64,000 bases of DNA from the NCBI GenBank assembly GCA_021734785.1, contig JAIPIF010000006.1:1-64000 (forward strand), read 5' to 3'. This document shows positions 7,011 to 9,501 of this stretch, in pieces. The translations under genes and the position numbers were made by a program. Within the stretch, counting starts at the first letter, position 1. Every line of letters begins with the position of its first letter. The notes under the pieces were generated by a model. That model was given only the letters and a program-made list of their open reading frames with translations. It did not search any database and was not told the DNA's origin. The stretch is from Candidatus Altimarinota bacterium (lineage in GTDB: Bacteria > Patescibacteriota > Gracilibacteria > UBA4473).

Positions 7011-8639
7011 TCATCGCCCCAATGCCTGCAGGTGAATCCGGTCGAGATCGACGGGAAGTTCCTCTCGCCACCACGGCGTCAGACGAATAAATCGAACCGT
7101 CTCGATTTCGGGAACATTGACCAGCACTGAGCGAGCATCGACCAGAGAAAGTCCAGCAAGCTTTTCTTTTAGTGCTCGTCGCCAGCGCCGCTCCTCGGGG
7201 TGAGGAGATTGCAGGTCCAATGTTTTGACGCCAATCATTTTGACAGACAGTTTGAGCCATCCTTCTTCTGCCAGTTGTTCTGAATCCAATACCTGGTATT
7301 CCACCAGTCGATCATCGATCTCCACCAACCGCTGGCGATCATCGAGGGTTTGCTTGAGTCTTTCGAGTAAAATTTCCGCCACCACCTCTTGATCAAACAC
7401 AATTCCATACAATTCCAACATTCCCGACACGGACACCGTCTGCGTCTCGGTGCCAATGAGTTCCTCCGGGAAATGAAATTCCGACAGAGCCGATTTGAGC
7501 AGGTGAGGATCATCGAGCAAAATATAGTGCTTTTTTTCACGACGAGATCGAGACTGGATTTCTTTTTTCAGTTGATCAATCGCTCGAGTACGAAAGGTTT
7601 CGAGTAAAAATGTATGGGCGAATGTTTTGTCTTTTTCTTCGAGAAAATAATGCGTCACGGTCGAACCACCCGTAAACGCCCCTTTGTTTGCGCGGGCGTA
7701 ATACAGCTCTCGCAGTTCATCACGAAGCGCGGGAAAAAAGAGATTTGTCCCGGCGGTGATATTCCCCCGCTCACCAATGGGCACCTCATTTTCGTCAAAG
7801 TCATCTGCCACCACAGAAACCACCAGTTCGCCTGGTCCCTCCTCCGTGCGGGGAGGAATCTCCACTTCTTCGGCAAAACGGAAAATTACCCCATCCGCGT
7901 CGGAGAGACGAGACGGCACCAGCCGTTTTGGGTACTGTGTTTCGTTGAAAAGAGTCACCGGCCCCTGGGCCGAGGTCAGATCGTATTCGCGTCCGCTGGA
8001 AGGAAAGGTCTCTGTCGCTGTCACACTGGTTTCGACAAAAATCCCCGGCACCTGTGGCAGTTCGGATTCTTCTTCGGGGACCGTCGCCTCAGGGAAGACG
8101 ATGAGAACATTTTGAATCACGGGCTCGGCAGAGATGCGAGGCTTGACATCGATCACTGCCCGCGGCTGGATCCACCACCACACCCCTGCTCCGACACCGA
8201 GCAACAGCAAGAGCACAAAAAAGAACACTCCCCGCCAGCGCACCCAAAAGGGCGTCTTGTGAATTTCGTGTGAGGCAAATCCCTCAGGATGCTCCAACGA
8301 TTCTTCGGTGTCTTTCTCTTCTGTGCTTGAAGGCGGAGCAAGGACCTCGGAGACTGTCTTTTCTGGCGCATCCGCAAACGAGTCGGGACACGTTTTGTAC
8401 GTGGAAATTTTTTGGGCAGACAAAAGCCGTGTGAGAAAGGTTTCCTTCGTCACAAAATGGATTTCTTTTTTGAATTTTTTCGCCACGGTTTTCATTTTTC
8501 GCACGACCGCTTCGTCACGAATCGCCGGGACCCGAGCGGGCAAAACAAAACACACCTGCGCAGCCTCCCCCTGCTGCAAAACGTTCAAAATTTCAGCGAG
8601 ACCGTCGTCCTTCTCGAGACGCACACGGAGCAATTTCAT
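7011..8639 (-). CDS. Membrane protein with baseplate-J-like domain
   Basis: 542 residues from ATG 8639 (MKLLRVRLEKDDGLAEIL). A ~100-residue soluble start is followed by an acidic linker, one membrane helix (VFFFVLLLLLGVGAGVWWW), then an external region whose central part (VTLFNETQYPKRLVPSRL, DADGVIFRFAEEVEIPP, NITAGTNLFFPAL, ANKGAFTGGST) resembles the baseplate J/gp47 family. Single-pass proteins of this kind are common in Patescibacteria genomes and unlinked to phage genes; function is unknown, perhaps a surface assembly. No phage genes lie nearby. A longer start at 8789 would add 50 poorly conserved, repeat-derived residues and is less likely. Confidence 0.6.
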   Translation of the reverse strand: MKLLRVRLEKDDGLAEILNVLQQGEAAQVCFVLPARVPAIRDEAVVRKMKTVAKKFKKEIHFVTKETFLTRLLSAQKISTYKTCPDSFADAPEKTVSEVLAPPSSTEEKDTEESLEHPEGFASHEIHKTPFWVRWRGVFFFVLLLLLGVGAGVWWWIQPRAVIDVKPRISAEPVIQNVLIVFPEATVPEEESELPQVPGIFVETSVTATETFPSSGREYDLTSAQGPVTLFNETQYPKRLVPSRLSDADGVIFRFAEEVEIPPRTEEGPGELVVSVVADDFDENEVPIGERGNITAGTNLFFPALRDELRELYYARANKGAFTGGSTVTHYFLEEKDKTFAHTFLLETFRTRAIDQLKKEIQSRSRREKKHYILLDDPHLLKSALSEFHFPEELIGTETQTVSVSGMLELYGIVFDQEVVAEILLERLKQTLDDRQRLVEIDDRLVEYQVLDSEQLAEEGWLKLSVKMIGVKTLDLQSPHPEERRWRRALKEKLAGLSLVDARSVLVNVPEIETVRFIRLTPWWREELPVDLDRIHLQALGR

Positions 8640-8787
8640 CAGCCCGCAATGTACCGCATTTCCCGCGGAAAGAAAACTTGATTTCAGCCCGAAAAAATTT
8701 AAAATTCCCACGCTTTTTGGAGCACCGTTGCCCCCAACCCGGGGCCCTCGCGAAATCGAAGATTTCGTGGGGAGAGGAGGAGCCACC

Positions 8788-8845
8788 AAGCCAGCAAAGT
8801 CCTCCGCGACAGCGGAGAACGAAGCGCGCGCAGGTGAGCGACGAC
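8788..8845 (+). repeat. Dispersed intergenic repeat, copy A
   Basis: Contains AAGCCAGC-AAGT-CTCCGC...GCGGAGAAC...GCGCAGG. About 80% identical by eye to 22807-22875. Both copies abut a tRNA or a tRNA-like sequence. The CTCCGC/GCGGAG arms make a hairpin. Confidence 0.65.
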
Positions 8846-8930
8846 GATGGGGCGTGGCCCACCGCTGAGCGGGGTTTCACTTCGTTCAACAAGTGGTAAG
8901 GCATCCCGCCTTGGCGGGACATTCGGGGGT
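8846..8930 (+). pseudogene. tRNA-Gln-derived pseudo-tRNA with swapped anticodon arm
   Basis: Bases ATGGGGCGTGGCC (8847-8859) match the tRNA-Gln 5' end; after a ~30-base palindromic insertion the match resumes with CAAGTGGTAAGGCA, but the anticodon arm CCAGG-TTTTGGT-CCTGG is replaced by TCCCGC-CTTG-GCGGGA, then CATTCGGGGGT matches again up to the T-loop, where it stops. So it is a broken duplicate of the tRNA gene at 9266. Confidence 0.65.
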
Positions 8931-9209
8931 GAGTATAATAAAAATATCAATTATAGTGTCTACATCCTCAAGAGCAAAAAAGACGATCGATACTACATCG
9001 GTCAGACAAACAATCTCAAAGAGCGACTTCGTCGACACGACACCGGACAAGTTCTTTCAACAAAACATCGACGACCATTCATTCTCCTTCATGCAGAAGT
9101 CTTCGAGAAAAGATCTGAAGCAATGAAACGAGAAAAATATCTCAAATCACTCAAAGGAGGAAGTGAATGGAAGAGGCTTGAAAAACAATGGAGCACGATC
9201 AAACGGTAA
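8847..9209 (+). CDS. GIY-YIG nuclease-domain protein
   Basis: The C-terminal ~88 residues are a complete small GIY-YIG domain: NYSVYILKSKKDDRYYIGQT, then KERLRRH and the closing EAMKREKYLKSL typical of the UhbP/UPF0213-like group; catalytic Tyr, Arg and Glu candidates are visible. The only in-frame ATG (8847) lies in the pseudo-tRNA upstream, before the promoter -10 box, so the true start is uncertain: a message starting near 8946 would open with ATC. Either a leaderless non-AUG start is used or the gene has lost its start. The gene is flanked by 32-base direct repeats (8895-8926, 9205-9236) and sits directly before tRNA-Gln, as expected for a homing-type element. Confidence 0.7.
   Translation: MGRGPPLSGVSLRSTSGKASRLGGTFGGEYNKNINYSVYILKSKKDDRYYIGQTNNLKERLRRHDTGQVLSTKHRRPFILLHAEVFEKRSEAMKREKYLKSLKGGSEWKRLEKQWSTIKR
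8911..8939 (+). promoter_or_regulatory. Promoter inside the pseudo-tRNA, driving the GIY-YIG gene
   Basis: TTGGCG at 8911-8916 (in the swapped hairpin), 17-base spacer, perfect TATAAT at 8934-8939. The expected transcription start is near 8946, at the beginning of the conserved GIY-YIG protein region. Confidence 0.6.
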
Positions 9210-9236
9210 GGCATCCCGCCTTGGCGGGACATTCGG
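9205..9236 (+). repeat. Second copy of the 32-base tRNA-Gln-derived repeat
   Basis: Identical to 8895-8926: GGTAAGGCA, hairpin TCCCGCCTTGGCGGGA, CATTCGG. It covers the end of the GIY-YIG gene (stop at 9207-9209). Distance between copies is 310 bases. Confidence 0.85.
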
Positions 9237-9249
9237 AAGACGATACAAT
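9221..9249 (+). promoter_or_regulatory. Promoter of tRNA-Gln, made from the repeat
   Basis: TTGGCG at 9221-9226 in the repeat hairpin, 17-base spacer, TACAAT at 9244-9249, 16 bases before the tRNA. Same geometry as at 8911-8939. Confidence 0.6.
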
Positions 9250-9265
9250 GCACATACAAAAACAA

Positions 9266-9337
9266 TGGGGCGTGGCCAAGTGGTAAGGCACCAGGTTTTG
9301 GTCCTGGCATTCGGGGGTTCGAATCCCTCCGCCCCAA
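9266..9337 (+). tRNA. tRNA-Gln (TTG)
   Basis: Acceptor TGGGGCG pairs with CGCCCCA, discriminator A, anticodon arm CCAGG-TTTTGGT-CCTGG (anticodon TTG), T-arm GGGGGTTCGAATCCCTC, encoded CCA at 9338-9340. Reads CAA/CAG. Confidence 0.95.
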
Positions 9338-9349
9338 CCAAAAAATTTC

Positions 9350-9391: not shown

Positions 9392-9501
9392 ATGAGAACC
9401 CCCGGGGGTTCGTGGATTTGTACTGAGAAGCGCAGCGACGAAGAGACAAATCCCTCGATTTCCCGCGAAGCGGGATGAGAGCATCCCTTCCGCCTCCGCC
9501 A
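9392..9501 (+). repeat. Degenerate tRNA-Gln tail copy with shared 42-base module
   Basis: Starts with the palindrome GAACCCCCGGGGGTTC (T-arm-like), continues with GGATTTGT...ACAAATCC and the CCCGCGAAGCGGG hairpin, and ends ATCCCTTCCGCCTCCGCCA at 9483-9501, an acceptor-like tail with CCA. Bases 9447-9488 are identical to 482-523 behind tRNA-Ser. The ~200 bases after it hold small palindromes (GACGAGCGAAGCGAGGACG) and no gene. Confidence 0.65.

Follow-up and report, generated by a model that had tools for sequence, protein, structure and literature searches.

Broken tRNA-Gln copies around a small GIY-YIG nuclease gene suggest a tRNA-targeting mobile cassette in Candidatus Altimarinota

In a 64,000-nucleotide stretch of a Candidatus Altimarinota genome (the window), a small GIY-YIG nuclease gene lies upstream of an intact tRNA-Gln gene and is accompanied by two partial copies of that tRNA. 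From sequence comparison, we consider it probable that this locus is a mobile, tRNA-targeting cassette around a free-standing GIY-YIG nuclease gene, which would insert by homing or homology-directed insertion with one intact tRNA being regenerated. An initial sequence-only reading had proposed that the nuclease gene entered the 5′ flank of tRNA-Gln in a homing-type event that left a partial tRNA duplicate, a proposal strongly supported here by the tRNA association of homologs, by remnants of the same tRNA, and by syntenic empty sites. The cassette is ordered as native promoter, 5′ part of tRNA-Gln up to a palindrome, short inner tRNA-like piece, GIY-YIG gene, remnant lacking a GIY-YIG gene, and complete tRNA-Gln, with the following features:

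8675–8705, plus strand: native tRNA-Gln promoter (AAAACTTGATTT...; TTGATT-16-TAAAAT at 8678–8705), conserved in empty relatives
8847–9209, plus strand: GIY-YIG nuclease open reading frame, with the catalytic domain at 8952–9155 (PF01541 match)
8848–8930, plus strand: tRNA-Gln 5′ remnant 1, from tRNA position 1 into the T arm (alignment to tRNA-Gln)
8904–8919, plus strand: palindrome TCCCGCCTTGGCGGGA, substituting for the anticodon arm in remnant 1
9189–9236, plus strand: tRNA-Gln 5′ remnant 2, diverged and lacking a GIY-YIG gene, with the palindrome at 9214–9229
9266–9340, plus strand: intact tRNA-Gln (TTG) (Rfam match)

The broken tRNA-Gln copy with a swapped anticodon hairpin that had been described ahead of the nuclease gene was confirmed at 8848–8930. 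Remnant 1 runs from 8848 (TGGGGCGTGGCC...), overlapped by the ATG at 8847, to 8930 (...CATTCGGGGGT) within the T arm, and comprises the acceptor 5′ strand, a D arm with an extra 30 bp (8860–8889), TCCCGCCTTGGCGGGA, the variable region, and the first part of the T arm. Its 32-base core is duplicated with 100% identity at 9205–9236 ahead of the true tRNA, as previously noted. Aligned by eye, 9189–9213 corresponds to tRNA positions 1–25 apart from 7 transitions, so that the second copy is likewise a 5′ remnant; it covers 9189–9236, more than first given, and contains the nuclease stop codon (9207–9209). As a separate observation, the differences from tRNA-Gln at 9189–9213 are exclusively transitions although the stretch also codes for protein. 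The GIY-YIG gene is the sole recognised gene between a conserved upstream neighbor and tRNA-Gln, a YceI gene lies downstream, and no integrase gene was recognised from the upstream neighbor through the tRNA to YceI. Rfam gave a match to the uninterrupted tRNA alone, and a group I intron or another kind of RNA element was accordingly rejected.

The reading frame at 8847–9209 matched PF01541 with an E-value of 6.5e-18 and 65.3 bits (curated cut-off 22.6). The conserved residues of the nuclease family are Y4, Y15, G17, R25, H29, and E61; among 15 sequences, Y4, Y15, and E61 are invariant and R25 nearly so, and all four are present in the window copy. Homologous frames encode ∼80–140 amino acids, and only the catalytic domain was recognised, with no separate DNA-binding region beside it. 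The closest solved sequences (PDB 1ywl, E 4e-7; 1zg2, E 4e-6) are UPF0213/single-domain GIY-YIG proteins, which share the organization of a single catalytic domain of about 90 residues; to our knowledge, UPF0213 proteins have not been described as tRNA-associated mobile elements. The sole in-frame ATG of the window frame is at 8847, and an ATC stands at 8946 where relatives start with ATG; with no standard start codon at the expected position, the window copy may be decaying, or it may start inside the remnant. A phage origin was considered and rejected: no relatives were found in viral contigs, and the two phage matches (Listeria phage, tblastn E ≤ 1e-5) were weak.

Homologs were sought in 60 relatives, chosen by similarity to the query with weak matches only partly fetched, and across bacteria and archaea at one genome per species. 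The arrangement of GIY-YIG genes beside tRNAs with flanking repeats, which the sequence-only reading had suggested seeking in related genomes, recurs there with remnants on the far side. For the class as a whole, 113 homologs were counted, of which 56 have a same-strand tRNA within 300 bp and 1 has an opposite-strand one; these counts leave out a second tRNA-adjoining GIY-YIG gene of the same genome as the window (at tRNA-Phe), inclusion of which raises them by one. Within 150 bp, same-strand tRNAs reach a density of 1.38/kb, compared with 0.02–0.04/kb at more than 600 bp. The adjoining tRNAs represent 18 amino-acid isotypes, and insertions of hundreds of base pairs are located exactly at tRNA ends. 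The nuclease gene sits outside introns and inteins, adjoining the tRNA gene, with no match to an intron family. Outside the class, the arrangement was found in candidate division KSB1, Melioribacter, Bacteroidetes, Omnitrophica, and many Flavobacterium.

A remnant of the same tRNA was present on the far side of the nuclease in 55 of 82 tRNA-adjacent, same-strand loci, with significance set at a score above 31 (99th percentile of the mismatched-tRNA null, whose maximum was 33) in a search that used each locus's own tRNA and is thus biased toward own-tRNA matches; over the loci, scores were greatly above the mismatched-tRNA null. Remnant polarity follows the arrangement: if the tRNA follows the nuclease gene, the remnant corresponds to the 5′ part, nearly always from position 1 and in the longest cases stopping in the T arm at about position 53–62, and with the tRNA upstream, it is the 3′ part, nearly always reaching the tRNA 3′ end. 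A palindrome (stem ≥6) occurs in 51 of 55 remnants versus 31 of 102 control segments and 8 of 55 intact tRNAs. Outside the palindrome, remnants match the host tRNA at 98.7% (median 25 nt), versus 91.8% over about 12 nt in the stretch from palindrome to nuclease, identifying the palindrome as the border of host tRNA and cassette. Extra remnant copies lacking a GIY-YIG gene, which look like internally deleted forms, are also found at four other loci (L028, L029, L040, and L106). The palindrome CCTGCCTGCCGGCAGGCAGG was observed at tRNA-Leu in three genomes.

Isotype fidelity was apparent among the nearest relatives. The five closest homologs in relatives (L028–L032; 55–64% identity, four families) all lie at tRNA-Gln, and on the nuclease tree, six Gln-clade members from families f1, f6, f7, and f9, all at tRNA-Gln, cluster with a support of 91, while a 57-row clade of mostly non-tRNA homologs is separate; the tree was built on few columns, leaving deep forks unsure. 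Isotype changes on this tree numbered 29 among class members versus at least 37 in 500 shuffles. Of 56 best matches from another genus, 29 have the same isotype, where chance predicts ∼4; for best matches from another family, the figure is 26 of 56. A target switch is seen in Flavobacterium, where nucleases 90–91% identical reside at different tRNA-Met genes in two species (one of them, by our reading of a C1 mismatch, of the initiator type); the two cassettes carry an identical palindrome, and the arm outside the palindrome fits the local tRNA. Separately, five Flavobacterium loci (L070, L071, L072, L087, and L088) hold two to three tandem GIY-YIG genes behind a single tRNA-Met, and at L070, every tandem unit closes with a 3′ tRNA remnant that carries the same palindrome, together with a duplicated terminator.

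Comparison of occupied and empty sites places the insertion between promoter and tRNA. The AAAACTTGATTT motif stands 47 bp (G011) and 44 bp (G012) before tRNA-Gln at empty sites and 590 bp (window) and 630 bp (G018) before it at occupied ones. Neither G011 nor G012 has a nuclease or a significant remnant at tRNA-Gln, and G012 and the occupied G018 belong to one genus. The upstream gene (window ∼7011–8639, minus strand) lies beside tRNA-Gln in five same-family relatives, one of which, G011, also shares the downstream YceI. Sites incompatible with insertion, such as would have spoken against the sequence-only reading, were sought and not encountered, and the syntenic empty sites of G011 and G012 fit insertion. 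Two candidate empty sites were set aside: that of G001, of the same genus as the window, has a 100-N assembly gap upstream of tRNA-Gln, and in G055, considered as the empty counterpart of G037, the tRNA is inverted beside the shared gene and the site is hence not clean.

Part of the added distance between promoter and tRNA in the window (8713–8847) is a separate leader repeat. This non-coding repeat also precedes other tRNAs of the same genome (L200, L208, and L219), ends in ...GCGACGACGA directly before tRNA genes, and contains palindromes such as GCGAAGCGGGTGCTTCGC; at L220 and L227, it is inverted after the tRNA, beginning with CGTCGCT directly behind CCA. The leader repeat has the appearance of a further short element positioned precisely at tRNA ends. 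In addition, 19-base 3′ tRNA fragments (T loop to CCA) occur 106–172 bp downstream of intact tRNAs without GIY-YIG genes at L213 (Trp), L222 (Glu), L223 (Ser), L229 (Gly), and perhaps window 9394–9411; at these loci, a GGGTTCGAT piece precedes a short insert.

The motif pairs TTGGCG-17-TATAAT (8911–8939) and TTGGCG-17-TACAAT (9221–9249) exist as originally reported, and promoter-like sites numbered 5 versus 0.3 in shuffles. The further claim that the repeat is a shared promoter of both units did not hold and was rejected as a general feature, because the conserved native promoter lies upstream of the whole insertion and the TTGGCG-17-TATAAT-type pairing was not seen at the other loci read. TTGGCG is the right arm of the palindrome, and with ATC at 8946, a promoter at 8911–8939 leaves the nuclease without a normal start codon. 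It is possible that 9221–9249 serves as a promoter for the tRNA, which would be local to the window.

Under the cassette reading, the nuclease would cut an uninvaded tRNA gene of the preferred isotype, and homology repair via the two tRNA-derived cassette ends would copy the cassette in. With a full tRNA segment at its end, the cassette would restore one working tRNA, leaving the displaced half behind as the remnant. The palindrome would mark the junction of host tRNA and cassette sequence, and probably either eliminates the remnant's cut site or is itself a binding site of the nuclease; copies lacking a GIY-YIG gene would be internally deleted, non-autonomous forms. The nuclease gene is probably co-transcribed with the tRNA, its frame ending inside the tRNA gene in 13 of 32 loci with a tRNA downstream, and RNase P would free the tRNA from the joint transcript. 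The tRNA association, a remnant polarity fitting insertion, isotype fidelity, empty sites, the tRNA-Met target switch, a conserved active site, and the precedent of phage SegB together make this cassette the probable explanation. Several points weigh against it: vertical descent combined with loss could produce much of the isotype pattern (L029 has the upstream gene in common with the window), the model does not account for self-protection although the cassette's own intact tRNA should be a target of the nuclease, simple homing does not need a palindrome, and the window copy may be decaying.

The palindromes invite a REP/REPIN-like explanation, which we regard as unlikely, in which the palindrome is the mobile end, the GIY-YIG protein is transposase-like and perhaps recognises a DNA hairpin, tRNAs are favored because they fold, and the remnant is a by-product. 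Consistent with this, palindromes are nearly universal in the remnants (51 of 55), palindrome type tracks nuclease similarity across genera (Spearman 0.42; 0 of 1000 permutations), TCCCGCCNNGGCGGGA occurs in 6 of 6 Gln-clade genomes versus 8 of 54 others (Fisher 6e-5), palindromes are enriched upstream of GIY-YIG genes away from tRNAs (17 of 53 versus 5 of 48), and further TCCCGCCTTGGCGGGA copies are dispersed in the window's own genome, many near tRNAs. REPIN/RAYT systems likewise tie palindromic repeats to the gene of a DNA-processing enzyme and have non-autonomous copies. However, RAYTs (TnpA-REP) are HUH/Y1 transposases, no HUH transposase was found, and the window gene encodes a GIY-YIG nuclease with tRNA targets. 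Palindrome dispersal differs between genomes, from scattered to nearly cassette-confined; in G018 and G037, the palindrome is found almost exclusively in the cassette itself, and same-tRNA remnants are unexplained by palindrome mobility alone. In the window's own genome, two GIY-YIG genes away from tRNAs (L001 and L003) have long palindromic repeats on both sides (e.g., GATCCTGAAATAAATTCAGGAT and GGATCCCAAATCAAGTTTGGGATGAC), which suggests that GIY-YIG genes are linked to palindromes outside tRNAs too. A palindrome-class copy (TCCCGCCTCGGCGGGA) was also observed in an apparent insertion within a 23S rRNA gene (L023; G000:C6:109871–109886).

It is quite unlikely that the arrangement is non-mobile, arising from ancient tandem tRNA duplications around a nuclease gene followed by vertical inheritance and decay. 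Although the Flavobacterium tandem arrays resemble local duplication, with sister copies on the tree, and the locus is orthologous in the window and G018, occupied and empty states differ within one genus and family at a syntenic site, near-identical nucleases occupy two different tRNA-Met genes, and the exact placement of inserts at tRNA ends extends over 18 isotypes. A host function in tRNA dosage, with the nuclease amplifying tRNA genes to the benefit of the host like SegB in phage T6, appears very improbable: extra tRNA copies are broken and non-functional, and presence is patchy in one family, notwithstanding the Flavobacterium arrays and the segmental amplification of tRNA genes and segB that SegB, which cuts tRNA genes, is reported to drive (PMC13096335).

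By functional analogy, phage SegB is the nearest counterpart of the cassette nuclease. SegB is a free-standing GIY-YIG homing endonuclease of T-even phages whose gene adjoins tRNA genes of many isotypes, and it is reported to cut inside them. Its reported motif RAWTSGAAC (PMC13096335) is, in reverse complement, the consensus of the tRNA T loop, the region in which the longest 5′ remnants of the present loci stop. In contrast, SegB is phage-borne and larger than the window nuclease, and tRNA remnants, clade-specific palindromes, and isotype preference are not known to have been reported for it. No T-even phage was among the tblastn matches at E ≤ 1e-5, and the element was therefore termed SegB-like rather than a SegB. 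Candidate phyla radiation (CPR) rRNA genes harbor intron-like LAGLIDADG homing elements, and GIY-YIG proteins in that study were judged to be outside spread by homing (PMC11270868); those elements similarly use homing endonucleases to invade essential RNA genes of small-genome bacteria, but are intron-like and of another nuclease family. Tyrosine-recombinase elements at tRNAs also keep one intact tRNA and a fragment at the far end, whereas here there is no integrase, the cassette is ∼0.4 kb, and fragments are 5′ as well as 3′. A literature search (bioRxiv preprints and many subscription papers being outside its coverage) found no published chromosomal cassettes of GIY-YIG genes with tRNA remnants.

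The cassette probably belongs with free-standing homing elements, and a new class is possible if the palindrome is a recognised end. In this more tentative extension, a single-domain GIY-YIG nuclease might recognise a clade-specific palindrome at the outer end, the tRNA-derived sequence serving as homology arm and safe landing site, with one isotype per lineage and non-autonomous copies, thereby defining a new mobile-element class in at least Patescibacteria, Bacteroidota, and some related phyla. Overall, the locus appears to represent a widespread mobile element that inserts into tRNA genes and spares one working copy. If so, it would explain many small chromosomal GIY-YIG genes sitting on tRNA genes as well as the hairpin-bearing broken tRNA copies beside real tRNAs, and annotation is affected in that nuclease frames overlap tRNA genes and remnants. 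It would also mean that tRNA-targeting homing, known from phages, operates in bacterial chromosomes with an isotype-specific, self-restoring design and would provide a family of ∼85-residue nucleases whose DNA specificity is possibly legible from the genome.
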